From the NCBI RefSeq assembly GCF_964204645.1, contig NC_134036.1, positions 3,644,001 through 3,708,000 on the forward strand: 64,000 nt of DNA, written 5' to 3'. This document shows positions 4,511 to 63,761 of this stretch, in pieces (within the stretch, counting starts at the first letter, position 1; the number at the start of each line of letters is the position of its first letter). This DNA is from Tubulanus polymorphus (lineage: Eukaryota > Nemertea > Palaeonemertea > Tubulaniformes > Tubulanidae). A model generated the notes under the pieces. It did no database searches, was not told where the DNA came from, and was given only the letters and a program-made list of their open reading frames with translations. The position numbers and the translations under genes were made by a program.

Positions 4511-7500
4511 TCAAACCAACATCCACTGCATGATACATGTGTCCACACCGCCCACTGTTATGATGTATCGGCTATCACGAGTGAAACAGGAATTCTGCAG
4601 GAAGCAAGGACCTTTATACGTGTGACAAAACACCTGTAAAAAACAATAGATACTTAACGTTAAATTTCGAGTCGAAAAGATAAGTGTATCGCACTCAATT
4701 TGTGAGCGATGCTATTGATGAATATACGAGAGATAGGGGGGGGGGGATCGGGAGTAGTAAGGTGTTGATTGACTTGATACAAGTTTCGAGAAAAAATCGT
4801 TGAATCCCCGTCGATGATACCAACACTCTGTCCGTGTTGAAACGATGAACGATTAGAAATACCGCACTCGGAAAGTAATTAAAAGAATCCGAAATAATGT
4901 TCCCTGGGGCCAATGGATTTTTCTCAATAGTTTCGACTCTGATGCTGATAATAGTCATTTTCAGGAATACTATACTCCTGAAGATGACTAGGATATAGTC
5001 GAAATGTCGCGAGAAAAAAATCATCAGCAGGAGGAAAACCTCGTCCTTTTCTCTTTAATTCTGAGCGTGGAATTTTCGATTTCATTTTCGCTTCTGGCAA
5101 CTGATCTATGATGTAGATGTACGCCCGGACTCGCTCGCAGGTGAAAACGCTAGGTTCACAGAGGCCATCAAACCCGGCTGATTCACACGGGAATTCGCGA
5201 CTCGTAAACTCCGAACTAGATTCTCCGACCCACGATTAAACGACCACGCTAAACCGTATAGATATTTTATTTCTGGAAATTTTATTCATTTATGCCCGAC
5301 GACCGTGATCTTCATCGACGACGTCACAGTTGGCGCGTTTTTTTACGTCACTAGATTTAAATACCAATCAAAATCTATTAGAATTAGAATTCAGTTTAGT
5401 AGGCCTACCTTGTCAAATTAGATTTGATTTCACTAATCACAATTTGCTAGTCACGTGTAATCTAATCAAATAAGATTTGCACAACAAGATGAATTTGACG
5501 CCTTGTTCCAAACGGCTGACAAGAAAATACTGTCCCACTTTTCAAAATATATTTCCTATAATTGAGTTTCAGGTTTCTCTTTCAGTTTTGCCATTTATAT
5601 CAGTTTTTCGAAAAAGATTTGTGAGTCTACCATCTTCAAATCGTATCAAATCACCTTTGGAGGTGATTTGATTATTTCACAAATCGATTTGAATTTGATG
5701 CCGTGTTCAATTCAAAAATGAGACCGAATCAAATTTGATTATGACAAGATAAAAACGATTTTACTTAAAAGCAAATTTAATTTGACGTGATAAATTCCAG
5801 GCAGGGAAATATCAAAGAAAGGTGATAAAGGGAATGAATTGCCATCTCAGCTTTGATTATTTTCCTTGAGTGGTCCGGTCTTAAGAGGGTTTGATAATCA
5901 TTCCGTTTTATATCATTGACGTGGCATACAATTTTTAGGATTTAAGAATTTATAGTTTAGTGTTGATTCAGTATCGGCATCCCTGTTGCTATCAGAAAGA
6001 CATCTAAATAACTCTGACAATCTATAATTCTTTTTCATATTTCAAATTAAAGTTCATGTTATTTTATATTCATAGTCTTACAGTTCATTTTTGCTTTGAT
6101 GTTGTTATAAATGGTTTGAAAAATCTCTTGAAATCTTGAATAAGTGAATGGCTACTGATCCGGAAAACTGCTGTGACCTAAAACGTCCACCATTGACTGC
6201 ACTGCCTGCAGAAAAGACGGCTTCACCCGCGGCCGAATCGAGCAAAAAATAGAATTTCCTTTTCAAAATTATCTCGATTTCCAAGTGAACAACTTAATAA
6301 ACTGCTTTCGGAAAACTCGCATCGTCGCGATGTAAATGAAAAAGTTGATACAGTAAATGAATTGGCGAAGAATAGCACACAACCTTTCAAAATCCGACCA
6401 TAGCATTCCAAAAAAATAGTTAAAAAATTTGATATCTGGTTTATGACCAGTGTATCGATAATACAATTTCTGTACAAAACTGTTGAATGAACTTAAGAAG
6501 TTAAAAATTGCGTGGGGCAAAACTAGTACAATATAAACAATAACTACGACTAGCAGAGTTTTACTGGCTGAAGATTTCTGAGTACGATCAGTTTTAGTTC
6601 TGAGCGGATACGCGGATTTCTTAGCGCGCCATACAGCAGTTAGAACTGACGCGATAACAATAACCACACCGGCAAATATATCTTCAATAAATACACTGAT
6701 AAATGGACGTGTTTCCCTCATTAGGGCAATGTTGCTTCGGGTAAAGTGACGGGTTAATGTTTTCGAAATAGAACACGACCACCGATAATAGGTTACGTTG
6801 GAACGGCGGCTGAAATATTCTATACGGCGAACATCGCTATACCAAATATTGAAAACCATTTGTACGGCGTACGACCACAAGACGACAACAACCACCGCTA
6901 TTTTACACCAAGTGGCGCTAAAATTTTTCATGTGAAAGAAAGGAAAACGAATCGAAACAAATCTTTCGATAGCGATCACCAGCACTATGTAGTTACATAT
7001 CATTACAGCTTCTTCTACGAAAAGTATATTCAGAAAACAGTAGGGAATCCATTGTTCGAGAATATGGTGAAAATAGTAATAAACATAGTAAATATTTGGA
7101 CATTGATCTATGAGTTTTGCGAATGACATGAGATACGTATTGCACCGGGTCAATCTAACCCGCGTGAGGAAGGCTACCAGGTTTGCGGCGAAATGTTCAG
7201 TCACATTATATAGCACGACAATCTGATCGCAGACGGCTAGAGTTATGAGATAGGGGAACGTGTAACGAACCGACTGATACCTTCTACATTTGATCAGTAA
7301 AATAATCGTCAGAAAGTTAAACACGCTGCCCAGCGGATACATGAACACCGACCTGGCCAGAGTGTTCCAATCGCTGTAGAATCGCACTTTTATGGCGAAT
7401 ACTTTCCAAGGCGGGTGGGTCCTGTAGGTGTAGCTCCGTCGAGTCGTCGCGATGGCGATACCGGTGAAGTTATCCATCACGACGTGAGACTGTCCTGTGA

Positions 7501-10500
7501 GCTGTAGCAGAGATACAGAACGAAAAGTGATTTCTACTTCTCCAGCTGCTGCTGCTGCTGCTTCTGAACGACAAACCGCAGGGCACGACTCACACACCTA
7601 TACTTATTTCCATAGGCAGTCTACGTTACGCGTGAATAGCGAGTATGCGATATTTTCATATGTACAGATCTAAAAATGTCCGCTTCCACGAACCTACATA
7701 AGCACTGCGTGATACACTTATACAAAACTGTCGCCTTCTGCAAGCAACTTCAGCACATGATGTGGGGTACTGAATCGCGAAACCAATCCTTATCGTTATT
7801 GCGCCGTCGATTTCGACAACTCAGACACCAGATCAGTGATGTACGCCCGGACTCGCTCGCAGGTGAAAACGATACGTTCAGAGATGCCATCAAACCCTGC
7901 TGATTCACACGGGAATTCGGGACTCGCGATCTCCGTAATAGATTCTCCGACCCTTCGATTAAACGACCACGCTGAACCGTATAGACATTGTATATCTGAA
8001 CGTGGCTAGGCTGTTCTCGATATTTCGCACGAGCCGAATAGGCAAATTAGCTGAGAAATCGAACTTTGATCTTTTGAATGAAATCCTTTGAAGCCAAACG
8101 AAATATATACCTTGTTTCTCATCACGGCCCGCATCGAAAACGAAAAAAATTACGTTTAAAAACGTTAAAAAAACTAAAATCAAATAAAGTGACGAATAAA
8201 ATCTACTACAAAATAGAATCCGCACGACCGCGTGTGTTATGAGTTGATTCTTGCTCGTTTTGGTTTGTTTTTTGCACTTTTTTATCGGTTTTTCTGACTT
8301 TGAGTTACAGTCGGTATTGATAATGAAAGAGAGATACTCGCAAACGCTTGTGTAACATTTCTTAGTAACAACCACCGGTCGTTAAGCCCGGCGACGGTAC
8401 AGCAGTGGAGTTGGAAGTTCGTGAAATCGAATCGTAAGCCCGAGCTTGAATGAAAGAGGGTGAGCTGCTCTATCCGTCGTAGCTTGAAGCCTCGGTAATG
8501 CCCGACGATCATAGCAATTCACAGTTGGTGCTCCTTTTCTTGACTAAATCCAAAAATCTATCAAAATCTACTAGAATCAGAATTTAGTTTAGTACTCTCG
8601 CCGTTGTCCCCCGAAAAAGGGGTCCGTAACGTCTGGTGTTAAGACTAAATTAGAATGGTGCCCATTCCAGGCAGGGAAGTATCGAAGACTGGTTATTTAT
8701 CTTGAGTGGTCTGGTCTTAAGAGGGTTTGATAATCATTCCGTCTTATATCATTGACGCAGCATAAAATTTGTATCAGTATACCAGGGATTCACAAATTTA
8801 TAGTTTAGTGTTGATTCAGCTATCAGAAAGACCTCTAAATAACTCTGACAATAAAAGAAAGTAACTTCATTCCTACAATGTATATAATTATTTTCAGATT
8901 AAACATTAAAGGTCATTCCCTTTTATATTCATAGCCTTGCAATTCATTTTTGCTTTGATGTTGCTAAAAATGGTTTGAAAAATCTCTTGAAAACAATAAG
9001 TGAATCGCTACTGATCCGGAAAACTGCTGTGACCAAAAACGTCCACCATTGACCGCACCGCCTGCAGAAAAGATGGCTTCACCCGCGGCCGAATAGAGCA
9101 AAAATAGAATTTCATTTTCAAAATTATCTCGATTTTCAAGTGAACAACTTAATGAACTGCTTTCTGAAAACTCTCATTGTCGCGATGTAAATGAAAAAGT
9201 TGATACAGTAAATGAATTGGTGAAGAATAACACACAACCTTTCAAAATCCGACCATAGCATTCGAAAAAAATACTTAAAGAATTTGATATCTGGTTTATG
9301 ACCAGTGTATCGATAATAAAATTTGTCTACAACCAAGTTGAATGAACTTAAGAAGCTAAAAAACGCGTGCGGCAAAACCAGTACAATATAAACTATAACT
9401 ACGAATAGCAGAGTTTTACTGGCTGAAGATTTCTGAGTACGATCAGTTTTAGTTCTGAGCGGATACGCGGATTTCTTAGCGCGCCATACAGCAGTTAGAA
9501 CTGACACGATCACAATAACCACACCGGCAAATATATCTACAATAATTACACAGACAAATTGAAGTGTTTCTCGCATTGGGAACAAGTTGCTTTGGGAAAA
9601 GTGACGGGATAATATTTTCGGAATAGAACATGACCACCGATAATAGGTTACGTTGGAACGTAAGAATAAGTTGACGTTCTATGCGGCGAACATCGCTATA
9701 CCAAATATTGAAAACCATTTGTACGGCGTACGACCACAAGACGACAACAACCACCGCTATTTTACACCAAGTGGCGCTAAAATGTTTCATATGAAAGAAA
9801 GGAAAACGAATCGAAACAAATCTTTCGATAGCGATCACCAGCACTATGTAGTTACATATCATTACAGCTTCTTCTACGAAAATTATATTCAGAAAACAGT
9901 CTGGAATCCATTGTTTGGGAATATGGTGAAAATAGTAATAAACATTGTAAATATTTGGACATTGTTTTTTGAGTTTTGCGAATGACATGAAATACGTATT
10001 GCACCGGGTCAATCTAACCCACGTGAGGAAGGTTACCAGGTTTGCGGCGAAAAGATTAATCACATAATGCAGCACGACAATCTGATCGCAGACGGCTAGA
10101 GTTATGAGATAGGGGAACGTGGAACGAACCGACTGATACTTTCTACATTTGATCAGTAAAATAATCGTCAGAAAGTTAAACACGCTGCCCAGCGGATACA
10201 TGAACACCAACCTGGCCAGATTGTTCCAATCACTGTAGAATCGCACTTTTATGGCGAATATTTTCCAAGGCGGTTGGGTCCCGTAGGTGTAGCTCCGTCG
10301 AGTCGTCGCGATGGCGATACCGGTGAAATTATCCATCACGACGTGAGACTGTCCTGTGAGCTGTAGCAGAGATACAGAACGAAAAGTGATTTCTACTTCT
10401 CCAGCTACGGCTGCTTCTGAACGACAAACCGCAGGGCACGACTCACACACCTATACTTATTTCCATAGGCAGTCTACGTTACGCGTGAATAGCGAGTATG

Positions 10501-16500: not shown

Positions 16501-19500
16501 TTAGAATCACCCGTAATCAAATCACCGCGATCGTTGTGTATCATCGTGTTTATGTATTTCGCCCGTAAATGGCTCTGAAAAAAAATCAAGAAAGGCGATT
16601 TAAACGCCACGAACTGGAAGGCAATGGCTGGAGAGGGATAGTCGAGTATCGGTTCCCAGAATTTGATCGATATGCACACACAAAACGGGCCTGTGAAATA
16701 TCAAGTTTAGAAAGGACACATATGCATTAAACGTCTCATCTATTCTCCAGTTTTGTTCTTTCTAACAAAAGTACTAGCATCGAATCGTAAGGATTATTGC
16801 ATTTTTTGCACCGCATCAAGCATGTCTATTGAAAATTAGAACGACACCAATTTCCACCAGTACGAGATATTTCTATTTCAAATATATCTCGGAAAGTAAA
16901 TCTTTCATCTTGTCAGCGACTTCAAAAGTACGATATTTCTAACGTCAAATGCACACTAACATGTGAGTAAGGAGAAATCCTATTTCTACAGACCTGATAG
17001 TCAGCTTTTGCTTGGAGGTGCAACGAAGCGCTGTCCGGGATGAACTTCCACCAGACCAGATGTTCAAGGCCGATTGTGACGATGAGGTCCGCGTTTCTCG
17101 GGTTGAATTTGATGTCACAAACTACGGGCGTCCCGACCTTTATAAGTCAGGAAAATACACTGTACTTTAATCGATATACATTCAAAATTAGAGATTCGCG
17201 ACAAATGCAAAGGATTTGATTCTTGATTGCTGTTTTCTGGTTTATCTTAATGTTATGAAATCTTTTAGAACTATATACATCATAATCATCTATTTCCACT
17301 GCAGTTTGCCTTGAACGAATTCAACCGTGCCATGGAAAAAAACCCGGCCTTGTCCTTTCCTCATCCATACTCTAAAGTGATTTGATACTTTGCCCGGCCG
17401 GAGGATGATCTCACTCACCTGAACGCTTGTTATCATCTTCCCTCTCAACGTGTCCCACACTGACATCGTGTGCTCTTCACTACTGTCGACCGCGACCAAA
17501 TAATCCTGAGACAAAATGAAATGATTATACTTAAGATTGATAAGAGGTTACTCGAAGATGCTCAACAACGCCTATAAGGCCACATTTAACAATAGGCTTG
17601 CCTAGTGAGCTGGATTACGACAAAATCCAAAATTCCATATTTTCAGTAGGCCTATACAGAGATTTATAGAAACCGACCTATAATTACAAGCCACATGCTT
17701 AACTTAATCAGGTCAATCTTAAGGGACGAAACCTTGATTGATTGAGACCCGTAAATATATGTAGCTGTTAGGTTTTACCTTGTTTTTGGCGAAGGCCAAA
17801 GCTATCACAGACTTCTGGAAATATTTACACCCGAGAACATGCAGAGTCTGCATAGTATCACAGCGCCATACTCTGACCTCAGCCTGGGTGAGGAGGTAAG
17901 CATAAACATATCTCAAATACTGAATAAGATTTATAATTTCTATGACACATACAAAAGTTCTATCTATTAATTTTTAAGTAAATCATTTTGCTTGTTAAGG
18001 TTTTTGATTATTGTTTATTGTTATAGCATCCTCTAAAAAACAAATTATTTACCTCAATCTTTTTGTCGTTCTCCAAACAGGATTGGCCAGTCGCTATAGT
18101 TACCCCATCAGAATGCACAGCCATGCTTCAATGGAAATACAGATATTGTTAGAATTATTGATATATTCATTGATTTGTCCAAAGCATTTGAGAACATAAC
18201 CCAGTGATTTGTACATGTCAACTTTCAAATAATGAATCACAAAAGCGATTTATCTAGTATTAGGCATAATTAATAAAATTTTATTTTGATATTGACAAAG
18301 CATGAAAAATTTCTGAATAATCAACCGACCATCTGGACCCTCGATTTCCGATTTCGAAATCAAACCCCGTTCCAGCAGGACGTGTAGTAGGTTAGTATGG
18401 GACACCGATTCGATGGATAATCCTTTTAGATCAAACACCTCACCTTTTTATCTCGCTGCTGTGGGCCTTGTAGTGTCGCTGCTGTCGTTCTTCGATTTTA
18501 TAAATAACGACGATGTTCGCGATGTAATAGGCGATCTCGCCGCTGCCCAAAACGAATATGTTACTGCGACAGTCGTTGCCTCGATAACCGTACACCCAAT
18601 CCAGTTGTAACCGTTCACGGGGTGGGTCACTGTTCAGACCTGCAAAACCCGTCGAAAGCTACAGTTTTCCAAAGAACTTTACCCACAGCTTTTGGGCCTA
18701 GTATCCTAAGTACTATATAGAAACAAAAATTCTTTTTAAACGAATATTGAATATTTTTCTATACAATATCTAAGATACTTGGGGTCAAGGTTTTTCATAT
18801 GAGTTGACCGAAACGATTATAGGTTTGCGATGCTGACCACCAAAGTTCCGAAGGAGCTAAAGTTTACTGTGGATTACACACGCCAGACTTAGCTGTTTTC
18901 AAACACATGCAGCCTTCGTATAACAAATGCTTAATGTCTGGGCTTGATGGATAGACTGATGATGATGTTATGGGTGTCGAAGCGAATGAATGTTTCTGCA
19001 ATTGGCGATATCTTACAAACAAAATTAGGTTACTTTCGGTCTGAATTGTGATATAGATTAATTCTTAACAATTTGAAGAAATAAATGAATGCAAGATAGC
19101 GTCAATTACGAAATCTTTCATGTCTGGGGGTTTGCTCGGGTTCGCAACGTGCTAAGCTAACCTGCTAGTTTGAGGTTGTCCGGTAAGAAAAGCAGCTGCT
19201 TTTTACCACCGATATCGACAGAGATCGTGTTGTTCGCGTCGGAATGCTTGACGGGATGTTCTCCGAGTGGCTTATCTTTGACGCTCACACCGCCGCCGCG
19301 TCCCTGCGCTGGAATCATCTCTGTAAACGAACGAATCCGAATGTCAAAGAAGAGAACATCGAAACATACGTATTATATTAATCTCTATCAAGTAAATAGA
19401 CGAGAGGTCGAAATATATGCTAGAACTTTGAACTCGAGTCGATCGCGGTTAAATCGTCAGAGTTCAATTTTCGTATCCCAATTTGTATTTCTAATTCAAT

Positions 19501-22500
19501 TTACTGAGTGTAAGTCGTCATTTAGATAGGTTATCAACGCAACGACCGTCTCGACTACGACGACTCAAGCGAGCTCGACCGAATAAACACTAATAATAAT
19601 GATAAAACTGTAATAATAAAAGACTCGAAGAAGGCTTTCATTTTTGCGCATATCGACAAATACAACTTACATACCGCCAGTATCCTCGTGTATGACGTCA
19701 TTGTGTTTATCGACTTGTATAAGTGGAATCGAAGATTGTTTTTGTTCGCCTTTCTTTTTACCGGCTAAATAGAAAAAAAAGTAATCAACTAAAAACTTTT
19801 TGTCCTTGAGTTCTCTCGCAGTCTCTCATTGAAGGTTGGTGATGAGATATGCGAAATCGATCATCGAAACTTGGTTTTCCTTGCTAGATTTAAGTTCTGC
19901 CTTTGACACTATTGACCAGCAACCTTTATTAGAACGTCTTAATGTTGATTTTGGTTTGGACGGATGATTCCCCCAATTGATTAGAACTGGCGGGCGTACC
20001 CGGGAAATTTCAAAATAGTCAACGTTCTAGGCCCGACTAGTCAAATTCTCAATTATGGGGTGCCTCAAGGTTCAATTCTAGGTCCGCTTTTATTATCACC
20101 GTTTACAAATACCATTGGTAATCTCGTCGTTTCTTTTACTATCTACATTTTTTCTGTTTTTCATATGGACTGACTCATGAAAGAAACGGCTGGTTGGGGA
20201 CATTCTTATATAATAACGGTACTAACCATTTCGAAGTAAACCCCTGACTGAACTAAAAAATCCCGTTTTCGTCGGAGCAACTGATTTTTGTTCTGAAAAA
20301 GAAAATCATGAAAATTCATCTTCATGCTCGGATGCTGATCTTGAAGAGTTGATAACCGGACGGATTATTCAGATTTGTTTCGGGTGGTGTAGAGTCTAAA
20401 AAATCTAATCCGGAATAATGGACAAGTACATCGTAGCACAGTTCAACAATCTATGATGAATTTTCCAAAAAATGGAGACGAACGGTTTCAGAAATAAAGG
20501 CGATTTGTTTACGCACCCGGGGTATGAATACATATTCTGTTTATTTACCTTTCGAAACGGGAGGTACGGTTAATGAATTCTGCGTATTGATAGGTGCGTT
20601 AGCCGAAACAGGCGTGGCTTCTGTCATTTCTAAATCGAAAGATAAAAGATGCGATAAGATATCCAAAATTTGATATCAAGACCGATTTTTCAACAGGTAT
20701 TCTCAGTTTAGAAGATGATGAACAAATTCACGATTGATGATACTAAAGGCTATATCTTTCTGACGGTTTCGAGGTTAATCTAAGTCTTATATTCAAAGGA
20801 ACAGAATTGATTTCTTTTCTTTCTGAAGATGGTGTTCAGAGAAACCTCGAAATTTTTGAAATAATAAACTTCATTAGTTGGACTTAAATTATTTGAAACG
20901 CAATTTAATTGATCTTTTGCTATAAGAAATGTCGTTTTAAAGCACGGTTTGACACATTTTCTGTAGATACTTCTCGAAAAAACGTTTCATGTGTAAGTAC
21001 CCTTGGACCAAAGTGGATTTAGAACATTTTCTTAATTCAATGACTTGGATAACTTACGCGCACCGGGTTCCGAGTATTCGGCCAATAGCTCTTTGGTTTT
21101 ATTGACTGATATCTTTATCTGTCCCTGCGTCAGTTTCTAGATAAAAAGTAACACACATAAAAACATCAACTTTATCTTAGATGTATCAATGTCATGCTAA
21201 AGTGATCTATTTTTGCTGAGTGTGTGGTTTATTTCAAAATGCCTTTTTCTCGTGCGACGTTAAGTTTTCGTATAGTTCTTCGCTATAGAAACGAGTAAAC
21301 TATTATCATCACTAAGTGCAGCTTTTGTATCGTATTTTCGACGTTACGTCAAAAACTGATCGTCCACAATTCACGTGGTGTTCAGGACTTCTGAGACAAT
21401 TTGATCGAACTTTCAACGCCAGACGGATATTAAAGGGCAAATGAAGAGTCCGTTATATAATCATCAATTAGCCTTTTAAAAGTAATTAGTTGAAACGTCA
21501 TATATAACATATGTAAACTTTCGAAATCCAATTTATCTACAAATTTAAATACTGGTTTTTCTTCACATAACCAATTATTATCCAGACACATCAACTCTTT
21601 ATTAGATTTGGGTTAACATCACTATGTGTCACTCTGTTATCGCCACCCTTTTCAGTCCACTTCACATAGTTTGTTTTTACCCTGAACTGTTTAGAATTGC
21701 TGTGGTTTCCACGGTACCCCTTGATGTTTTATTGCTTGGTCTTTTTATCTTTAGTTTTGACACACTGCTTCTATTCTAGATCCTGTGAGTTAATATGCTT
21801 TGTTACTTGTTTTTCTGGTCATTCCACCTGATGATGGCTGTTAGTCAACAGCCGAAACGTTGTGGTTTCGTAATAATAAAATTGTTCGTGTAGTTTCAAA
21901 TTCGAAGTGTGGGATTTCTACATTTATCTACAGTTTACACGGATTATAGTGTTTATTCGACAACTAGTTGAAACGTCATTTTACACAAAACAAAGCTAAG
22001 ATTTTCATCGGCAAACTTTGAGAATACGATTCAAACTACGATGGTGAATGTCTGCACAGTTGATCTAGATTTCAGATCGACACCCGCATTGATAGCGAAG
22101 GAAAGTTACGGCCCAACGGACTTCAATACTTTCGGCAGTCTTAAAATAAGCCATCACTACCTTCCTGAGGTTGGAGAGGGTGCGCTCTTTTTCCGTGTCG
22201 AGGGAACCGAAGCTGTTATCTCGTTTACACCAAGGCTCTTGCAGTTTGAAGAATTCGGGTTTTTCGTCGGGCGGCAAACTCTCCAGAAACGTTTCCTGGG
22301 CTTTTTCGAGAAAACTGAGCATCTCCGGCCAGCTGGAATAAATCGAAAAAATAGGAATCGAAACGAGTTAGCAAATATTGGCAATTTCAGCGAATATTTC
22401 GAAACAGTTTCCGGAAAGTACTGCCACCTGGCGACGATTCAGTACTGATGACGCAAAGGAAGGGTTACCGTACCCGGAAGCTAAACAAAGCATCTCGCTT

Positions 22501-25500
22501 GGCTCGCTAAACACATCGTTTTTCGAGAATGAATTATCAATTTTGTGCTGTTTACTACACTTTTTGATGGTATGTACCACATACAAATGTATATTACATC
22601 AACTAGTTTCAGTGACTGGCATCTAAATCGAACAAATGCAAAAAATCTTAATATGCTAAATTCGATCGTACACGACCGTGTTTTTTTGCACAACCGACAA
22701 GGTCGTTTCTGAGTAAGGAGTTAAGGAGGACCGACGCGTACTTAACTGCATTATCAGTTCACTCTCAAAAATATTTACCTGACCTTCCCGTTCGCTTCGT
22801 CGTCGCATCGTCTCAACAGACTCGTCAACAAGGCACCGTAGATGGGCATGTCATCCGTGTTGAATAGTTCGATGATTTTCTGCTGTTCTAACTGGCCGGT
22901 TTTCTGCTTGTCCATAATCTTGATTAAAGACGAGATGCAAATAAAATTAGAATGTCACAAATGTTCGTATACGTTGGGGTTCTGTGCTAGTCAATATGCA
23001 CTACAGTGAAATTAGGCATTCATTTCATGACCCTAATTTATATGCGATGAATTTTGATAATTAAGTGTTGTGTCTTTTTTGATGATGCGCACCACTTCAT
23101 CAATATATCGGGCCTAGACTGGATGCGGATCGTCGATTATCGATGTATTCAAATACAAGATTACTTTATCGATCCTTAATTTATAATCTATATCATTCAT
23201 AATTAGCAGAATATGCGGTTTTTTTTTCAAAGCGTCAAACAACTTTCATTAGTTTTCTTGTTATATATGTGAATATGTGAATATGGTATCAATTCAATAG
23301 ATTTCATCTAATATAAGTTATCGAGGGGAAAAGATTTATTGTGCGACTATTCTATTAGATTATTAAATTTCATTGAAAAACGCGTCTTGCTCCAGCAGTG
23401 ACATCGTGATATCTGAGTTGACATCTCTAAGTAATCGTTGTTTTTCTTTTTTACAATAATCACCTGCAATATACGGCGTAATTCGTTCAGATCGGGCTGC
23501 AGCCTGGAGCGCGCCAGCTCGCACTCGACCCTAAAAATCAGATCCTGATCACGTGCTTCAGGCGGCAAGACGGAAGTGTTCGAAGTGTCGTTGGCGTTGT
23601 CGGTGTTCAGCGCCTCGACGCTGTCACGGCCTGAAAAAAAAATATAAATAATTCATTTTTTTGAGTTGACCTGTACAATCATACCGGTATCAACAGGCAG
23701 CCTGGACTCGCCTTCAGAAATTGTGCATATACTTATACTGATTATTTCTTGAAAGTTTATACGTAGCGGTGTTTGTTGTTCATTTTCAATTAGAAATGTC
23801 TCAGGTGAAGTTCTGAATACATGTGAAGTGTGGACGATCAGTTTTTTTAAGTTTGCTGATAAAATATCTTATTTCTGGTGTTTGTAGTTCATTTTCAATT
23901 AGAAATGTCTCAGGTGAAGTCCTGAACACATTTGAAGTGTGGACGATCTGTTTTGGAAGTGTGTTGATAAAATGTCTAATATCTATTTTTTTGTAGTTCA
24001 TTTTCAATTGAAAATGTCTTTAGTGAAGTACTGAACACATGTGAAGTGGAGGCGATCAGTTTTTGAAAGTTGAAAATATCTAAAATGAAATAATCATCAC
24101 AAGTGGAACGTGGACGATCAAAATGTCTGAAGGGTTTCGAGAGTGCATAAGGACATCGAATTTGTTTCGAATTCGAATTTTTGCTATTTTTTGCCGTTAT
24201 TGCTCCGCTTGAAGCCGAAGAAATTTCTAAACAGAAAAACGAATGACCTTGGATTACAAATTTTTCAACGCAATTATAGACAAGCATTTTGATCAAAGAA
24301 ACCAACAAGCTATATTGTCAAAATTGCATAGAATATTTTTACGCTTTCGACAAAATTTACAACAATTTTACAATGATGGTTTGGGGTTTTCGGAATGTTG
24401 GCTTTTGGTAAAATCATTGGGACTTTATGGCTAAAACTGTATAGTTTTACCAGTTCACGTCATCTTATTCCATGCTCATATATACAAGACCAACAGACGA
24501 ACAACGGTTTAAAACTGGCGAACAAAGGATGCGAAAATCTATAACGCATTTTACTCCCTTTGTAAATTCAACGAAAATATATCAAAGCTAAAAGTTTCTA
24601 CGGCGTCAGTTTCAGTACAAAAGATCAAACATGACAAAGAGCCAATTTGCGCCGCGCGTTCTGCTGAATAAAACTAAATTAAATTAGCGAACAAAAGCCG
24701 TTCGCGAATGCCTCGGTATCAAAGGCTGCCTTTTCATTTTAGATATCGTATTCGTAGAGAAAAGTTCACTGCAAGTTTAGAAACTTTGTCGGCAAATTCG
24801 TCTCCGCAATATTATCGCGCCGCGTAGGACGACAGACCACTGTGGTACTCAGTATCGATAATTTAAGTTTTGCCTTCAGTTTTCAGAGAAAGATTTCCGC
24901 TACAGTCGTTCGTTTTACACCTAGAAATTGATATTTGTTTCATACCTAAATATAAATATTCTTTTACAGAACATCTGCGATATTTTTAAAGCTACGAGTG
25001 AACTATTGAATTATCAAATCGCGTCTGTGATTGGCGCTACAGGTTTTAAAAGATGGAATAAATATTTCTTTAGATGTAGTATCTCGCATTTGATATTTGT
25101 GTTCGTTTTTCGATACGATTGTTTTCGACATGACACGAATTAAGAATGTTATGTTTGTAGTTCTGGTTTCCATCTTACTTCAAGTTTGCATCGCGCGCGC
25201 TGATCGCGCAGACTCTATCGAGAAATCGTCTGTGACGGTAAGTTCGTCTTGTAACAACACGTGGTACCCGCTAGATTCTACGTCCGGTTACATCGTTTCA
25301 CCGAATTACCCGTCGTTAACGCGCGGTGTTGAATGTCGTTGGTTCATCAACAGTTCTTTACCGGGAACTTTTCACGTCCAAGTTTACCACGATATCGATA
25401 TGTCGATATTCTGTAAGGCCAGCTACCTACTCGTGGGCGAGTCTGATGACAGATTATGCGGTGATGGAAAACATGAAATCCGCCGTAACGATTCGATCTC

Positions 25501-28500
25501 GTTGATGTTTAGAAGTAACGTCGATGATTCGCGAGGTAGTCGGGTTTATATCATTTATCGTTATGAACGAAACCGATTGATTCTAAGTCACAACTGTAGA
25601 TCCAATCGTCTTAGGTTGGAACGATTGCAAACATCAAATGGATACAAATTCGCTCTATCAATTTTTCAACAACATTGTCAACTATATTTAGAATGGCTCG
25701 GACTTCAGGATGGTTTCGCTTTGAACCTTACATTCATAGACGTTAGCTTCGAATTACACCCCATTGTTAAAAAAGTTTCGGTTAGAATCCACGACGGTTG
25801 GAACACCAGTAGCGAACCTATCGCTCATATACCTGAACAAAAAGGACTAACACCATCTACGTTTTATACTAAAACAAACAAGGCCATCGTCGGTATGCCA
25901 CCATTCGGATTCACATTTCACTCAAAATTACATGTGCACATTTACAAAATATCAGATTGGAACGTCTCTAACCCGTTGATTCAGATCTATAATAACGAGT
26001 CGGGAGTGCTCATTCCCGATGACAACAGTTTACACGTAATAACTCGATCAAAACACTTACACTGCTGGTCTATCACAGTGCAGGTGTTACAGTACGTCGT
26101 CTTCAACTGGACACGTGATCTCCTCACATCAGCTGACGGTGTTTATAAACTAGAAGGGTTACGCGCTGTAGAAACTGATATTTTACTCGGTTACAACTAC
26201 CTGCAATCACTGAGTGTCAAATCGGAAGGTTTTCTCGTCGTATTGTGCGTCATAACGGGAAAAGAACTAACGCAGTCTCGTATTGAGATAAATCAGCACG
26301 TGGAATCGCTTTCGATGACCGACGTTAAGGTTTCTACGCGACGAGTAAGTAATAAATACGTTTTGATATAGAATCGAATGTTTTTTTTTCAAAATGCTTT
26401 TAAACACAAATAGGAATTTTAACATCTGGCATCTTTTTCTACAGGCTATGGGCCAGTATTTTACGCCTTTTCGACAGTTCCCAACGAGAAACAAGCCGAT
26501 AGTGACGTACCGCGTGCAAATATTGAAGTTCACAACAATAGTAAATATTCATGAATCTGGTTTACGCATGTTGGTTTTATCAGAGAACTGCGAGCGAGCT
26601 GGATTTTACATATACGACGGTGGTAATTTCACGGCTAGACGATACGGTCCGTATTGTCCTCGTTCAACTAGGTACGACCGTAACGTCGTCAGTCTGATTA
26701 CATCAGGTCGATCGGTTACTATAGTAGCATACGCCTACAAATGGGACGGACAGTTGACCGAAGATAACCCACTTCTCAGATTTCAACCAACCGACTGTGT
26801 CGGGTACATCCTCCGGGAGGGAGAACGGCAGGTCAACATGACGTCACACTGTCTCGTGATTACACCCGAAAATCGACGCCTTCCTTTGAGACATATTTAC
26901 ATATTATCAGAACACGAATATCAAATTGACCGATGTTTTCCCGGAAAAAGGCAGATGTCTTCGTGCAAAAGATCTACAACTGTAAAAAGCCGATTTCTCA
27001 ATAACAGTCTCGTATTAAACACGGTTAGTCTTGACAGCGAAAACCAGTTCTGGCAATCTCCATTCATAGTTAAAGTACGTCGTAAATGCCAGAGTTTGAA
27101 GTTGGCCACTTCAGGTAGTATCGGAATGTTTTTACCGGATAAAGATGAATGCGGAATCGTGCAGTCACCGAACTACCCGGGATATGCAGGCTATCTTTCT
27201 CAGTCGCTTGGCTATAGATTCAATACTAGATTTGTAGGAAACGCAATTCAATACAAATACTACAGATTCGTTATCAAATACATCGACGTAACGCCGTGTT
27301 CTAAAGCATCTTTATCGGACAAGGATCCGATTGAGTTTGTTCAACAAATGTACGATTATATCATCGAAAAGCGGACGGAGGGCGTGCATAAAATCTGTAA
27401 AATTAACCATCCTTTACTCGGCAGCGTATTTCACAGTTTAAAGAAGGGTGGCTTCTATTTTAACGTGAAAGGTGAAGTTCCGGCATTTCAAATACAATAC
27501 ACATTAGAAGCATCGTCACAGATCGAAGGGAGTGGCTGCGACCCGGGATTAATTGATTCGGGAATTTCATGCGTTAAATATATCAGTGATGAACGTCTGA
27601 ATTGGGAGAATGCTGAATTGTATTGTAGACAGAAGTACGCGGGACATCTACTCAGCATCAACTCAGAACAGGAAATGGCGGCTATCAAGACGTTATTCGC
27701 TACGAAACTCCTTCAAAATGCTTATTCACAGATATCGCTCGTAATGATGATTGGATTAAAACTGCAGGTAATAAAACTTAATTTTCAGAGCTTTATTTTG
27801 TTTAGAATCAGATGCTGTTTACGCAATATAGCAAATCTTATTCAAATACGTAGTTGATAAACAACGAAAATTAGTTAAACTGGCGTTTCGGATAAAATTT
27901 CACAGATTTATATCTCAAAAAATACATTAGATTTTGAATATAGCTCCGAAGAAGGATAGGGCAGTGTAACAACAGATCTTACGTCGTTATGGTCAACATT
28001 GTGGGATTTTCATCAATCCTACTCAAGATAATATATATTACAACTATGAGTGCAATCATATGCTAAGTGTGAATACATATTATCAGGAAAATATATAATA
28101 TGCTTGTGTTTTCCAGCCAAATACTAGTCAATACACGTGGACTGACGGGAAACCATTGACCTACACAGAGTGGTATAAACCTACAAATAACGAAACCATA
28201 CCAGATGTTATTCAAGGATTGATATCTTTTAGAAGAAAACAACCGATAAATGACGTCAATATGCCGTGTACAGCGATGATACTGAATAATCCACGAGGTT
28301 CGGCGAACTGGGTTCGATTCCCGTGTCTTATCGAGGAGGTTCATACGACGTTTGTTTGCGAATCGGATAGAAATGAAACAAAACAAGATGGCAATCTGAC
28401 TTCATACGAAAATGAAACAATACTATCCGCTAAAAATGATTTTTTTCCAAAGCTAGACACCAGTTCAACCTGCCCTCGCGGTTGGGTAGGTATAGCAGGG

Positions 28501-31500
28501 CGATGTTATCAAATACTGACAAATTGGAACAAAAACCGAAGTTTAGATATTGTAAGCGCGGGAGAAATGTGCCGTGGCATCAGCGGTGAAATAGGTGAGA
28601 TCTCTTTAACTGTAAATTTCGTAAGCGTTTTAGTCACTACGTTTCACTATCAACACCAATATGGCGCCATATTAGTTAAGGATGGGCATAAGAAAACCAG
28701 AGTGATACAGCCATTGCTGACCAGGGACGGTATCACCTACGTTCATTCATTGGGTTGGTCCTTCGATTCCACCGAAAACACAGAACTTGGTGATGTGCAT
28801 TCTGTTCTGTGTTCATACAATGCAACTGATGAAGAGTTAGCTTCTATAAGCGGTTGTAAATCGTGGCAGTTTAAATGTAACGATCAAAGATGTATCAGCG
28901 ACCATCGCGTATGTGATACCAGACACGACTGTCAACACGGTGAAGATGAACTCAATTGTACGGATATCAATCTACGCAGTCAGTTTCAATGCGATGATGG
29001 GCAGATTATATCAATAAGTGGTTTCTGTGACTTCATACAGGATTGCGTCGATGGTTCCGATGAGACCTCGTGTTTTCATCCACCGTGTTTGTCCGAACAA
29101 TTTCGCTGTAAAAGTGGTCAATGTGTCAGTAGGTCAAACAGATGTGATGGAATAACTAATTGTAGGGATGATTCCGATGAAATGGGATGCACTGCTGAAC
29201 TGTGTCAGGGGTTCCTATGTAACAGTGGAGACTGTATCAGTTCTGAGTTGTATCAAGATGGTGTCGTGGATTGTAGTGGAAGCCTCGAAGAAGATGAAAT
29301 AGTGACAAATAGTGTTACAGTGAATCCTACTGTTCATTGCAATGATGAAAACGAATGTACGACTAACTTCACAAATCTCTGCGTAGAATCTGATGAACAA
29401 AAATGTTCTTTTAATTCTCCGCGTTGTTACTCAAGACGCCACAGATGTATTCTGGAAAGATTGAAAAATAGTTTCCCAGTTTGTAGAAATCTTGAGCATA
29501 TATTGAGATGTGAAGAATTTGAATGTCCAGCTGGGACTGTAAAATGTCCAGCATCGTACTGTATACCGATCAGACAGGTGTGCGATGGCCAATCAGATTG
29601 TCCTAATTCAGAAGATGAGCAAAACTGCGAGACATTTTTATGTCCGGGAATGTTTAAATGTAGTCAGGAAAATCGGTGTATTCCACAATCTGAAGTTTGT
29701 GATGGTGTTGTAAATTGTAAACATACAACCGATGACGAGGCTTTCTGTAACGTCACGTGTCCTAGTCGTTGTCAATGTCAAGGTCATTCTGTGGACTGTA
29801 GGAATGTTGGTCTCACCGATATTACTGGTCTAATCACGATATCAACTCGAGTTCTAATGTTGTCCAATAACAGTGTGCTTTTAAATGCGTCAGCGTTTGC
29901 TTCCTTTGTCTATCTTCGCATGCTCAACCTCTCCTCCAATGAATTGTCTCACATTTTGCCAAACACATTCACAAACCTGCATAATCTACGAACGTTAGAC
30001 CTTACGTATAACTCGATTAAGATTTTATCAACTAATACATTCAACGGTTTGTATAGTTTAAAAGAACTTTTCATAACTGGAAATCCAATTCGATATCTAG
30101 AAGATGGTAGCTTTAATGGTTTAATCTCCCTTCCCAGTTTTGACCTTCACGGACTGTACATTTCAATACTTGCCGCAAATGTATTCAAAGGTTTATCCTC
30201 AATGACTTCATTGAATATCAGCAGCAATAGAATTAATTTTATATCGAAATATGCTTTTTCTGGTTTAAGCGAACTTTTGTATCTTGATTTATCCAATAAT
30301 TCCAATTACATTGCGACAGAGATAGGGATTTTCGACAATCTGACATCATTAGTCTACCTAACGTCTGATGCTTACAAATTTTGCTGCATGGCTCCGAATG
30401 TTGACCAGTGCCTTCCCGAAGCTGATCAATTTTCCTCCTGTTCTGATCTGATGGGTAACACAGTTCTCAGAGCTATCATCTGGGTCATCGCTGCGTTTAG
30501 TTTCTTCGCCAACAGTATCGTCATTTTACTTCGAATTCAAGTATCACCATTCGAAACGCGTAACACGTCTTCTGACATCCTCATCACGAATCTCGCAGTC
30601 TGCGATTTCATGATGTCGATCTATTTGTTCTTGATCGCCGGAGCCGATTACGTTTACAAAGGAGTCTATTTCCTAAATTCTGAAATTTGGACGGACAGTT
30701 CGTTGTGTCGATTTGCCGGGATTTTAGTTACTATCTCTTGTGAAGGATCTTTGACATTCTTGCTTCTCCTGACGCGTCATCGATACTCGAACATCGTCGA
30801 TCCATTTTCCGATAGTGTGATGATCACTCCTAAACACCTCACCAGTATTTGCTGCCTTTGCTGGATCATTTTGAGCATCGTTTCCTTGTTACCGCTGTCA
30901 CAATCGCCGTACTTCGGTACGAAGTTCTACGGTACTACCGGGGTTTGTTTGCCGATGAATTTACTTACAATCGATGTCAATGCCTGGCATTATTCATTGG
31001 CCATTTTCGCTGCGTCCAACTCAGTCATACTTGCTACAATTATGGGCACTTATGCCCAAATGTACAGATTCGTATCTGGAAGCAGGTCTGGTTCTGGTAG
31101 AGCTGATCCTACCGAACTGGTTTTAGCACGCAGGAGTTTGGTGATAAATCTCTGTAATTTATTTTGCTGGCTGCCATTAATTACCGTTCAGTTTTGCGCG
31201 GTACTCCGCGTGGACATTCCGAATCAGGTGGCGGCTTGGCTTGCGGTTCTTTTCTTACCGATCAACTCGTCCCTCAATCCTATTCTTTACACCATACTGA
31301 CTATCGATATGAAATCTGTTCGAGCAAAGAACAAACGCCTTCGAAGACAGAGAAGAATTATCTAACCTCAAATTATCATTCCACAGCTCACCATGCATAA
31401 TTATGTCTGATACATCGATAGATCTGCACAGTTCACCTTTCACAATGTTGTTTCAAATAATATAATAATTCCGATGATTAACTGTCATTAGCCACGATCA

Positions 31501-34500: not shown

Positions 34501-35383
34501 TATCTTTCTCTTCGCCCACCGCCGTTTTTTGTTTTACACTCCGAGTCATCAAAAAAGGCTGCAGTGCCGTTGTGAGTATCATTGAACTAAAGCGATGCCG
34601 ATGCAGCTGTCAATCTGCTGTCTGTACCCACCACCCACAGCAGACGATCACCTTTTGAATGGCGCAGTCCGGACGAACAAATTTTTCACAAACGGTGGAT
34701 GTCTGTCTAAAATTAATGGTTCATGCATGACACCCGAAATCATTTTTCAAAGACAAATGTCTGGGGTACTGGCAGAGGGGGTTGGCGACGCCTGGACGAA
34801 CATGTTTTTGGAAAATGGCGAATGTCTGTCGAATGTCTGAGGGGTGTGTACAGACAGCAGATTAATAGCTGCATATGCATCGATACATCTATATCATCGC
34901 TACCCTGTCACATGCAAGTCATGGTCTTACGCTTACACGGATATCCTGGACAAGTTCTAACTTACCCGGTCCGCTAGGTTGATTTCCAGTTGTCTCTTTG
35001 TTTTGCGGATACCGATAAGCCCGCAGGCGCTGGGCTCTTTTTTGCTGAAATAGATGATAAAGCCGACGTTTGTAGAATAGCCCAACAGAAGTGGAGAATA
35101 GATCATTGAATTAAAATCCACTAGATACAAATTCAATACGAAATTTTAAAATCAAAATCAAATGTGACGATGGTCAGAGACTTTTCTTTTAACTTTAATC
35201 TGTTGATTAACATTCATTTCGTTTTTTATTTTTTTTTACAATTTGTATTAAATGGGTTTTAATCCTTTAAAATTCGAAGTTTCCGTCCTCAATTCATCAA
35301 AGGATTCGACGCCCTTCGAGTATAGACCTAAATACTCACCACCTCTTTGATCGAGGCGTTCAAGGCGCTGCTCGCCGTGTTCG

Positions 35384-35416
<33 letters not shown>

Positions 35417-36543
35417 TCGCCGACGAAGTAAGAGATGAATTCAGTCCGCGAACAGCGTTCGTGAATTTACTGCTCGGTACTCTATGGTTGACAGTAGTCT
35501 GCATGGCTTCGCTTTCCGTTTCGCAATCTAGAACTTCCTGCAGAAAATGAAAAAAGAGAGAACACGATTTTTGATTCTATGTTTAACTATAAATAGATTG
35601 TGTTACTATGAATACATCTTTCATAAGGTATATACAGATTTTTGTTACTATAAATATGTCGGCGTTATTTACTATGAACAGAATTCTATTAATAGAAATC
35701 CATATTTCGATACCCTGTGTAATTTTGAAACCAAATAACTCTTAATATACTCTTCTATTCTAGAAGTCTTTTTGGCTGAATTATTGTCGAATTTCGCTCG
35801 TCAAATGAAGCCAAAAAGATTTTCTCTCGCGCCACGTTTGATTCCGCTTTATACACGTATATGCATGCGCATATACGGTCTGATTTGTCGTATACGTTTG
35901 TATATAACTTCGACAATAAGCCACACTCTGTACTCGGCAACGATAAAATGGGTGAATCTCACTGAAGTCTTTCTGGAAAAATGACTTCAATATTCCCAGT
36001 TCTCAGCCCACGGTATCCGTGGTCAACTCGGTCCGATATTTACAGTCCCAACCCTACGAGTGCGACGGAGTCTACCGTATCATGTTTACTGTAAATAGTT
36101 CCAAACGGTACCGAGTATGGTCGAGTCTACATCTAACGTGTTGATTATAACAAAGGGATACTATGCTGGCTACATGTTGAAACAGCAAGACTGAGTTAGT
36201 CGAATTCTAAGAATATGGAAAAGCTGAACTCTCGGCAGTTGAGAATGTATTTAGCCTGCAGCTAAAACCGAACCAATGAAATCAATTCATCTCGCGTTGT
36301 AATAAACAGATATAATTGATACGATTTCGGCGGAAAATTCACCTGAAATTCGCTCGATTTGACGAACTGAGACCCGTGCACGTCAACGGGCACCTGTTGT
36401 AGCGAGGCGGACGTCGATGCGGACGGTGCCTGGTGCGAATGGTGTTTCTTCGCGGCTATAGCTTTGAACGCCATGATATCGGCTTCCAGACGCCATCTAC
36501 TGCGCAGTTCTTTTCTGGCGCTGACCACCGATGACCGTTTCAT
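4511..36543 (-). CDS. EF-hand/EML fusion protein: C1orf87-like N-terminus plus HELP-WD40 (28 exons)
   Basis: Coding exons: 36543-36343, 35537-35340, 35044-34966, 34261-34065, 33649-33529, 23630-23464, 22918-22779, 22332-22161, 21136-21058, 20629-20549, 19764-19675, 19320-19162, 18639-18444, 18125-18053, 17883-17779, 17505-17419, 17137-16994, 16574-16434, 15735-15622, 15345-15193, 14679-14539, 13909-13839, 13727-13589, 13325-13167, 12545-12440, 11776-11684, 11116-10983, 4633-4511. All junctions keep phase and give 1220 aa. An in-frame stop lies upstream of the ATG. Residues about 105-115 are polyGln; 160-425 hold two EF-hand-like modules ([31 protein letters not shown]), similar in order to C1orf87/CREF as I remember it. 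The HELP motif ([16 protein letters not shown]) starts near 575, followed by EML WD40 repeats ([16 protein letters not shown]-like [13 protein letters not shown]) ending [12 protein letters not shown]. The EML family binds microtubules. The donor at 13589 could instead be at 13595. The microtubule or ciliary role is inferred. Confidence 0.87.
6269..7597 (-). CDS. Class A GPCR, peptide-receptor-like, copy 1 (intronless, nested)
   Basis: This is a single-exon rhodopsin-family receptor of up to 442 aa. The better start is probably Met41 (at 7477, MDNFTG), which places an N-glycosylation site at the N-terminus; the stretch before it is a GCT/GCA-repeat-coded Ala run that differs between copies and looks like 5' UTR. 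TM1 is [16 protein letters not shown]3 ends [12 protein letters not shown] (DRY as ERF), TM4 has [12 protein letters not shown]2 contains NVT and a Cys, TM6 has a conserved Pro (LVLPHAIF), and TM7 ends YCINFFIYI (NPxxY relative). FMRFamide-receptor-like peptide GPCRs are the closest group I can name; the ligand is unknown. It sits in the last intron of the EML-type gene on the same strand. Confidence 0.82.
   Translation of the reverse strand: MCESCPAVCRSEAAAAAAGEVEITFRSVSLLQLTGQSHVVMDNFTGIAIATTRRSYTYRTHPPWKVFAIKVRFYSDWNTLARSVFMYPLGSVFNFLTIILLIKCRRYQSVRYTFPYLITLAVCDQIVVLYNVTEHFAANLVAFLTRVRLTRCNTYLMSFAKLIDQCPNIYYVYYYFHHILEQWIPYCFLNILFVEEAVMICNYIVLVIAIERFVSIRFPFFHMKNFSATWCKIAVVVVVLWSYAVQMVFNIWYSDVRRIEYFSRRSNVTYYRWSCSISKTLTRHFTRSNIALMRETRPFISVFIEDIFAGVVIVIASVLTAVWRAKKSAYPLRTKTDRTQKSSASKTLLVVVIVYIVLVLPHAIFNFLSSFNSFVQKLYYRYTGHKPDIKFFNYFFGMLWSDFERLCAILRQFIYCINFFIYIATMRVFRKQFIKLFTWKSR
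9136..10450 (-). pseudogene. Class A GPCR copy 2, frameshifted
   Basis: This is the tandem copy of the 6269-7597 receptor. The first frame (10450-9476) matches copy 1 from the N-terminus through TM4 ([12 protein letters not shown]) and then departs; TM5-TM7 continue in another frame (9585-9136). The break lies at about 9658-9692, in the ECL2 coding region, where copy 2 has 39 bases against 35 in copy 1, a +4 net change with rearranged local sequence. The C-terminus is also shorter (ends FIKLFT, lacking WKSR). Elsewhere the identity is high, so inactivation is recent, or the site is polymorphic or an assembly error. A small intron removing the insertion is possible, but I see no good splice sites. 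Confidence 0.78.
11894..12039. mobile_element. MITE with CCAGGGGCC terminal inverted repeats
   Basis: The left end CCAGGGGCCAGTTGCACAGT and the right end (reverse complement CCAGGGGCCGGTTGCATAGT) form imperfect inverted repeats of about 27 bp around an AT-rich core rich in GGTCTTAAG. A partial copy follows at about 12045-12117 and a degraded one near 48180. No transposase is present; superfamily undetermined. Confidence 0.7.
16179..16332. mobile_element. Mariner/pogo-type MITE (CAGTGGAACCTCGTTA ends)
   Basis: CAGTGGAACCTCGTTA at the left is mirrored by TAACGAGGTTCCACTG at the right, 154 bp in total, with a TA on the left flank. Ends of the form CAGTGGAACCTC are typical of non-autonomous Tc1/mariner (pogo/Tigger-like) elements. 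It is in an intron of the EML-type gene between exons 16574-16434 and 15735-15622. Confidence 0.75.
18444..18639 (-). CDS. HELP-domain exon of the EML-type gene
   Basis: This single exon of the large minus-strand gene carries nearly the whole HELP signature: [17 protein letters not shown], then [14 protein letters not shown] and [10 protein letters not shown]. These residues align with the hydrophobic EML-like protein motif that packs against the WD40 propellers in EML1-6. It fixes the family assignment. It starts in phase 1 after a CAG acceptor and ends AAAAAG before GTGAGG. A 46-codon open frame just beyond the donor looks like read-through intron. Confidence 0.9.
19875..20110 (+). mobile_element. 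Non-LTR retrotransposon reverse transcriptase fragment
   Basis: Translated from 19881 the plus strand reads [13 protein letters not shown] and, after frame breaks, [13 protein letters not shown] near 20055. These are conserved reverse-transcriptase blocks of LINE elements (Jockey/CR1-type). The catalytic YxDD block is not visible and stops or frameshifts separate the blocks, so it is a dead fragment inside an intron of the EML-type gene. Confidence 0.82.
21600..21905 (+). mobile_element. Penelope-like element end (probable)
   Basis: About 300 bp of intron sequence ends in a hammerhead-like hairpin (21828-21858) and an AT-rich tail (GTAATAATAAAATTG). That arrangement matches the terminal regions of Penelope-like retroelements, which are known to carry hammerhead ribozymes. 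No reverse transcriptase or endonuclease frame remains here. Confidence 0.45.
21828..21858 (+). ncRNA. Hammerhead-ribozyme-like core
   Basis: CTGATGA at 21828-21834 is followed by a perfect hairpin GGCTGTT-AGTC-AACAGCC and then GAAAC at 21854-21858. CUGAUGA, stem II, GAAA is the catalytic core of hammerhead ribozymes. I cannot confirm stems I and III or the cleavage site by eye. Confidence 0.6.
23760..24130. repeat. 110-bp repeat family, locus 1
   Basis: Several imperfect units of about 110-120 bp contain TTCATTTTCAATTAGAAATG, TCAGGTGAAG, ACTGAACACATGTGAAGTG and GACGATCAGTTTTTGAAAG. The same unit occurs at 41440-41900, 44205-44425 and 61865-62300. It lies in intron 5 of the EML-type gene, next to the exon 23630-23464. 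Confidence 0.85.
25130..31365 (+). CDS. Chimeric GRL101-like receptor: CUB / C-type lectin / LDLa / LRR / 7TM
   Basis: Three coding exons, 25130-26344, 26445-27767 and 28117-31365, join in phase 0 to give 1928 aa. The start at 25130 gives a signal peptide (hydrophobic [16 protein letters not shown]); an in-frame ATG at 25097 is less likely. Order: CUB about 41-150 ([14 protein letters not shown]); an unassigned Cys-poor region; second CUB 641-755 ([14 protein letters not shown]); C-type lectin 770-927 ([12 protein letters not shown] spans the exon 2/3 junction); second lectin-like module about 965-1078; five clear LDLa repeats plus degenerate ones 1093-1391; a Cys cap and LRRs 1393-1600; 7TM from about 1629. 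DRY appears as HRYSNIVDP and TM7 as NPILY. Snail GRL101 has LDLa-LRR-7TM and relaxin receptors are relatives; the lectin/CUB part suggests carbohydrate or protein recognition. Ligand unknown. It lies antisense inside intron 5 of the EML-type gene. Confidence 0.88.
31366..32290. other. Downstream flank of the chimeric receptor gene
   Basis: The interval should hold the receptor's 3' UTR. No further exon is visible. A MITE occupies 31597-31809 and the rest is unremarkable up to the TG microsatellite. Confidence 0.5.
31597..31809. mobile_element. MITE with GATACCTTGTTTCTCC ends
   Basis: The left end TTAGGCTAAAC...GATACCTTGTTTCT is mirrored by AGAAACAAGGTATC...GTTAGCC at the right, about 213 bp apart. 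Members or pieces of the same family occur at 39873-40046, 42293-42392, 48451-48556, 50596-50802 and 51470-51570. No coding capacity; superfamily not assigned. Confidence 0.75.
32320..32740. repeat. Long TG / TGTA microsatellite
   Basis: About 420 bp of (TG)n mixed with TGTA, TGCG and TGTATGTA tracts. Open frames on both strands (alternating Cys/Val or His/Thr) are low-complexity artefacts. It lies in intron 5 of the EML-type gene, downstream of the nested receptor. Confidence 0.95.
34593..34882. mobile_element. MITE with about 30-bp inverted ends
   Basis: The left end ATGCAGCTGTCAATCTGCTG continues TCTGTACCC and the right end is its imperfect reverse complement (GGGTGTGTACAGACAGCAG then ATTAATAGCTGCAT). 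The interior has two related blocks around TGGACGAACA and GGCGAATGTCTGTC. It sits in the intron between EML-type exons 35044-34966 and 34261-34065. Confidence 0.7.
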
Positions 36544-46159: not shown

Positions 46160-46302
46160 TTTAGAAAGTTATACGTATATATCTATAAAATGGAATAACA
46201 ATAAGTGAAGATAAGATAAAAAAAACCCACTATTTACAAATTAAAAGAAATCTAAAATCGAGAATTTATTTATTGAAACAATCTAAAATATAAGAACACG
46301 AC

Positions 46303-47446: not shown

Positions 47447-63761
<16,315 letters not shown>

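Follow-up and report, generated by a model that had tools for sequence, protein, structure and literature searches.

A predicted EML-family gene with degenerate EF-hand-like modules ahead of its HELP-TAPE core in the nemertean Tubulanus polymorphus

EML/EMAP-like proteins are defined by a HELP motif followed by WD repeats (PMC2642796, PMC4761370). Members of the family differ mainly ahead of the HELP-TAPE core, and this part helps to set how microtubules are held. EML1-4 have a trimerising coiled coil there, DCX-EMAP (fly CG42247 type) has doublecortin domains, and EML5/6 have no such module. The association of EMLs with microtubules is described as requiring both their basic region and their trimerisation domain (PMC4761370), and DCX-EMAP is described in PMC3048163 as marking the ciliary dilation in mechanosensory cells of the fly. 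An EF-hand has been claimed for EMLs before, as a passage in PMC9037033 (citing O’Connor 2004) singles out EML5 as the one EML that has no calcium-binding EF-hand; the place of this EF-hand within the EMLs is not given in that passage. C1ORF87 (CREF), a protein with degenerate EF-hand pairs, is called a ciliary tip protein of human airway cells in PMC12700831, and is tied to ciliated cells or named as a ciliary candidate in three further sources (PMC12772120, PMC13096173, PMC11317154). Among the matches listed in a literature search, none described the fusion of an EML with an EF-hand or C1orf87 module.

Here, a stretch of 64,000 nucleotides of the Tubulanus polymorphus genome (henceforth the window; C12:3644001-3708000, free of any N, from an assembly of 268 Mb in 77 contigs) was analysed. 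A search for COX1 gave no match. Exons were predicted with a finder trained on the codon use of long open reading frames of the window, using generic splice-site matrices set by ourselves. The curated model lies on the minus strand (36543-4511) and consists of 29 exons encoding 1240 aa, with an ATG at 36543, no internal stops, and a stop codon that ends at 4511. A preliminary description of this DNA had reported 28 in-phase exons and 1220 aa; the stop-free series from the ATG at 36543 to 4511 was recovered, and both counts were revised. The 66-nt, phase-neutral exon 20292-20227 may have been skipped in the earlier reading. The exons named there (33649-33529, 23630-23464, 19320-19162, and 18639-18444) are all present in the curated model.

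Following the minus strand in reading direction, exon 1 (36543-36343) carries the start ATG and encodes a disordered N-terminus, which continues with a poly-Q stretch in exon 2 (35537-35340) and is followed by exon 3 (35044-34966). The first EF-hand-like module is divided between exon 4 (34261-34065), whose 12-residue loop is degenerate, and exon 5 (33649-33529). Beyond intron 5 (33528-23631; 9.9 kb), the second, DUF5580-like EF-hand module begins in exon 6 (23630-23464), continues in exon 7 (22918-22779) with a 12-residue EF loop and the start of another 12-residue stretch, and ends in exon 8 (22332-22161). The linker is encoded by exon 9 (21136-21058), which has no in-frame ATG and ties both halves together, exon 10 (20629-20549), with an in-frame ATG at 20627 at which a separate EML gene could begin, exon 11 (20292-20227), and exon 12 (19764-19675), which is basic. 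Exon 13 (19320-19162) contributes both linker and the EML strand before HELP, and the HELP motif itself (18506-18625) lies in exon 14 (18639-18444). Exons 15-28 (18125-10983) encode the first and most of the second EML beta-propeller (18125-18053, 17883-17779, 17505-17419, 17137-16994, 16574-16434, 15735-15622, 15345-15193, 14679-14539, 13909-13839, 13727-13595, 13325-13167, 12545-12440, 11776-11684, and 11116-10983), and exon 29 (4633-4511) encodes the end of the EML domain and the stop codon.

Several other frames share the window. Intron 5 holds a gene on the opposite strand (25094-31365, plus strand) for a receptor with CUB, LDLa, LRR, and rhodopsin-type 7TM domains, in which a C-type-lectin-like domain scored below the cut-off; we presume this receptor to be GRL101-like. 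A copy of it was located 510 kb away at C12:4208201-4238200 (85-88% identity in two long matches), in a region that also carries rearranged intron pieces and an exon-5 fragment of the EF-EML gene. Two similar tandem 7TM receptor-like frames occupy the last intron on the same strand as the gene (6272-7597 and 9136-10450, minus strand), the former with a 7tm_1 score of 24.7 bits, i.e., below the cut-off of 30.5, and the latter split over two frames. At 281-1304, open frames of several phases overlap one another and are visibly repetitive. Upstream of the EF-EML gene and on the same strand, a 3'-5' exonuclease-domain frame (45305-46168, minus strand) was found, which we take to be EXD2-like, and the adjoining frame at 43350-44303 gave no Pfam match over the cut-off. 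A single-frame 7TM receptor (55359-56321, plus strand) matched Srw/Srx chemoreceptor profiles over the cut-off.

The C-terminal half, as translated from the model, is certainly a genuine EML protein, and its earlier description as a complete EML was confirmed. HELP, Beta-prop_EML, and Beta-prop_EML_2 were detected over the Pfam cut-offs in the whole model (PF03451 66-67 bits, PF23409 263-267 bits, PF23414 178-183 bits). The closest solved relative was EML1 (4ci8; E 1.7e-100, 31.7% identity by blastp), of which residues 32-654 aligned to residues 37-708 of the 709-residue query, spanning two beta-propellers and the whole TAPE domain. The HELP motif and the tandem atypical propellers are thus shared with EML1-4, as is a basic disordered linker before HELP like that described in PMC4761370. 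Where EML1-4 have their trimerising coiled coil, the window protein has the EF-hand-like modules; the only coiled-coil match in Pfam scans was a weak one to ZMYND8_CC (E 0.35). The window contains a single HELP match, as opposed to the three HELP-TAPE units of EML5/6, and none of the genome’s 8 matches to the DCX domain, which DCX-EMAP carries upstream of HELP, falls inside it.

Across the genome, 6 HELP matches were found in all, and three HELP loci exist besides the one in the window, i.e., a canonical EML at C1:22.09 Mb, an EML5/6 type with three HELPs at C1:6.75 Mb, and a DCX-EMAP type at C7:18.72 Mb, where a DCX domain precedes HELP by 5 kb. Judged by its predicted product, the window gene is the fourth EML locus of this genome. 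Its core is divergent, with 35% identity to EML1 in anchored columns compared to 62% for the canonical copy, and 26-35% identity to EML1 and the other EMLs of the genome. In an unrooted tree of seven rows, the core had the longest branch and grouped with DCX-EMAP (support 0.935); both branches are long and the few rows are query-anchored tblastn pieces, and the grouping was therefore treated with care. With DCX-EMAP, the window protein has in common an EML core and an extra N-terminal module, which consists of EF-hand-like modules instead of doublecortin domains. Several introns of the first propeller lie near those of the canonical copy, with approximate positions judged by match edges.

The two halves of the model are connected by the four small in-phase exons 9-12. 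Their joining in phase was rejected as proof of fusion because it is too weak: the score of the chain was reached in 0/60 shuffles, in 3/1000 of a second shuffle set, and in 3/144 same-strand intron tests, but in 52/153 plus-strand tests (antisense of exons included), amounting to 55/297 over all controls, and in-phase chains occurred in 16/52 control stretches, which were not gene-free. With a stiffer intron penalty (-10), 2 of the 4 linker exons were retained and 75/297 tests reached the score. Composition is the stronger evidence that the linker is coding. C, W, F, and Y account for 3 of its 102 residues and disorder-promoting residues for 73.5%, compared to 14.7% and 53.9% in 31 pseudo-exons drawn from the gene’s own same-strand introns (last intron and linker introns excluded), and the linker values were reached in 0 of 20000 resamples. 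A disorder-promoting fraction of 0.71 was attained by 4/4 linker exons and 0/31 pseudo-exons. Exons 11 and 12 have two open frames each, and in both exons the frame that fits the chain has the linker-like composition. Exon-like segments numbered 4 in the 2.8 kb linker versus 7 in the 9.9 kb of intron 5 and 1 in 6.3 kb of EML introns. Since exon 9 is devoid of an ATG and no in-frame initial exon (ATG to donor, donor score >2) was found in 22064-21176, exon 8 is taken to be its partner. Fusion into one protein, as put forward in the preliminary description, is hence favoured on the composition of the linker, with in-phase joining alone being weak; at the level of sequence, we consider a single fused gene with one transcript to be quite probable.

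An arrangement of two tandem genes would instead consist of an EF-hand gene running from 36543 to a TAG at 22065, followed by an EML gene that starts in exon 10 (ATG 20627) or exon 13, perhaps by means of trans-splicing or of a leader exon on its 5' side. Exon 8 is open on to this TAG and the extension scores +2.6, an AATAAA lies at 21957 (108 nt past the TAG), and in-frame ATGs are located 2 nt after the acceptors of both exon 10 and exon 13. The read-through tail after exon 8 is, however, intron-like in composition (CWFY 0.23, disorder-promoting 0.52), and the linker-like, ATG-less exon 9 would be left without an initial exon upstream. AATAAA was counted 8 times in the linker compared to 3.95 expected (8 being reached in 6/200 shuffles), and 0 times compared to 0.23 expected at the EML end (3900-4511), which is an uninformative stretch. 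Two-gene and fused models scored nearly alike, with 62.8+103.3 versus 168.4 at E -10, 83.7+123.2 versus 206.5 at E -9, and 113.6+145.0 versus 253.5 at E -8, where at both E -9 and E -8 the partial models share exons and the two-gene sum is too high. A DUF5580_C domain with which the N-terminal gene could finish was found neither in the three frames of 22160-19321, where an exon-split domain could be missed, nor in the whole model among the best 25 of 34 families, nor genome-wide, where an intron-split domain could escape. The search for a spliced leader RNA, which weighs little here as the model covers SL1 only and 50 of 57977 candidates were scored, found none of SL1 type. Taken together, two tandem genes are considered unlikely. 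Far more improbable is an accidental join of recent date, by read-through or in the assembly, that yields no functional fused protein: other receptor genes do sit in intron 5 and in the last intron, but the window is free of N and the composition of the linker is protein-like. The single fused gene thus remains our preferred reading.

The identity of the N-terminal half, with its two EF-hand-shaped, degenerate modules (exons 4-5 and exons 6-8), was assessed using comparison sequences of calmodulin and human C1orf87 as well as a PROSITE EF-hand pattern. The C1orf87 sequence matched DUF5580 N, M, and C over almost their full lengths, and we take DUF5580 to be the C1orf87 family, provided that this sequence is correctly named. 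Against cut-offs of 24 bits for DUF5580_M and 23.9 bits for DUF5580 N, a 291-aa stretch with the second module scored 28.5 and 24.9 bits, respectively, and both profiles reached 24.4 bits with 136 aa; scores fell below the cut-offs in the whole 1240-aa protein (22.5 and 20.4 bits) and amounted to 22.4 and 20.5 bits in an earlier 428-aa version with another start of exon 7. The range of DUF5580_M (22.4-28.5 bits) hence straddles its cut-off and varies with the stretch given. EF-hand_7 gave 18-23 bits in the window protein (22.9 in the 291-aa stretch; cut-off 30) versus 55-145 bits in three generic EF-hand controls, and because of this difference and of DUF5580_M scores near the cut-off, the likeness of the second module to C1orf87/DUF5580 is regarded as real but marginal. 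We give only slightly less than even chances to the N-terminal half being a generic degenerate EF-hand region, i.e., to an EF-hand EML without special C1orf87 kinship. In pairwise alignment, calmodulin was as good a match to the second module (score 66, z 6.9) as either C1orf87 domain, with a score of 63 (z 6.9) for N and of 56 (z 6.0) for M, hhalign of the single sequence against C1orf87 gave a probability of 5% at best, and generic EF-hand proteins themselves reached 19.0-21.7 bits for DUF5580_M. The N and M profiles moreover match the same stretch of the window protein and are not colinear, i.e., N does not lie upstream of M, and the first module shows no likeness to C1orf87, the z values being 0.0 for N and 1.0 for M. 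Against a generic origin, both DUF5580 scores of the 291-aa stretch exceed that of EF-hand_7, whereas EF-hand_7 leads DUF5580_M by at least 34.8 bits in the three generic controls.

Kinship with EF-hands as such is supported by the predicted sequence for the second module and appears weak for the first, which resembled calmodulin (z 4.8, 0/500 shuffles) and matched only HTH_21 in Pfam (E 0.084). When the N-terminal 530 aa were compared by sequence with solved structures, no relative was significant, and calmodulins were the best hits (E 0.08). The EF-hand N-terminus of the preliminary description is accordingly supported for the second module, and the attribute C1orf87-like may apply to this module in part, with DUF5580_M and N as its nearest profiles; the first module gave no sign of it, and a C domain was not found. 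The protein had also been described as calcium-regulated or degenerate-EF, and the latter term fits better: the PROSITE pattern for the canonical 12-residue EF-hand loop had 0 matches in 1240 aa, and one 12-residue loop was a near match. Since no more than one EF loop seems suited to binding calcium, regulation by calcium is probably either weak or missing altogether.

A standalone C1orf87 gene was sought in the genome with PF17743, PF20742, and PF20743, which gave nothing over the cut-offs, and with part of human C1orf87, which gave no match; searches with PF17743 and PF20742 also missed the window’s own gene, and the absence of a standalone C1orf87 is thus not demonstrated. Weak places in the genome numbered three for PF17743 and four for PF20742, and the two of these seven that were inspected (C1:1703582 and C1:4078577) both looked like ordinary EF-hand proteins. 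A candidate for a second, standalone C1orf87 gene at C12:4218041 was rejected, as it is a fragment of exon 5 (90% identical in DNA over ~103 bases and, as protein, 71% identical over 34 residues) that adjoins the duplicated opposite-strand receptor gene and rearranged pieces of the 9.9 kb intron. In comparison to C1orf87, which is built as N-M-C without an EML part, the window protein shares degenerate EF-hand pairs and adds HELP-TAPE.

We therefore propose a single gene whose product is one protein of the EML family with N-terminal EF-like modules, an explanation that we hold, as a whole, to be likely. The protein would be disordered at its N-terminus and would then carry two EF-hand-like modules, both degenerate, the second of which has C1orf87/DUF5580 as its nearest family. 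A linker that is basic (pI 9.4) and disordered would lead into the complete HELP-TAPE domain. By analogy with its relatives, the TAPE domain would bind tubulin and the basic linker would help to hold microtubules. The EF modules would occupy the place of the coiled coil, as doublecortin domains do in DCX-EMAP. Microtubule binding through the linker is uncertain, since no trimerisation domain was recognised here and EMLs, according to PMC4761370, need both elements; it would consequently fall to the EF-like modules to provide another contact, or to anchor the protein at microtubules of the cilium or elsewhere. A ciliary role is plausible given the reported location of C1ORF87 at the ciliary tip (PMC12700831) and of DCX-EMAP in fly sensory cilia (PMC3048163). 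The EF-hand that PMC9037033 implies for other EMLs has no stated position in the passage concerned, and the EF-like modules of the window protein form a separate N-terminal region.

The locus is best described as a new N-terminal design within the known EML family, for which one gene is likely but unproven. A tentative and rather doubtful reading sees in it an EML subfamily of its own, perhaps an old one, that is marked by the fusion of an EF-hand module of C1orf87 type to the EML core. Beside the coiled coil, the absence of such a module in EML5/6, and the doublecortin domains, the EF-like modules would be a fourth N-terminal design and would widen the EML family. By the ‘Rosetta stone’ argument, proteins that one species has as a fusion are often interaction partners elsewhere. 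If this subfamily reading is true, human C1ORF87 would be predicted to cooperate with an EML on the microtubules of cilia, and if the module is truly C1orf87-like, this would provide a testable partner prediction for a little-studied ciliary protein.
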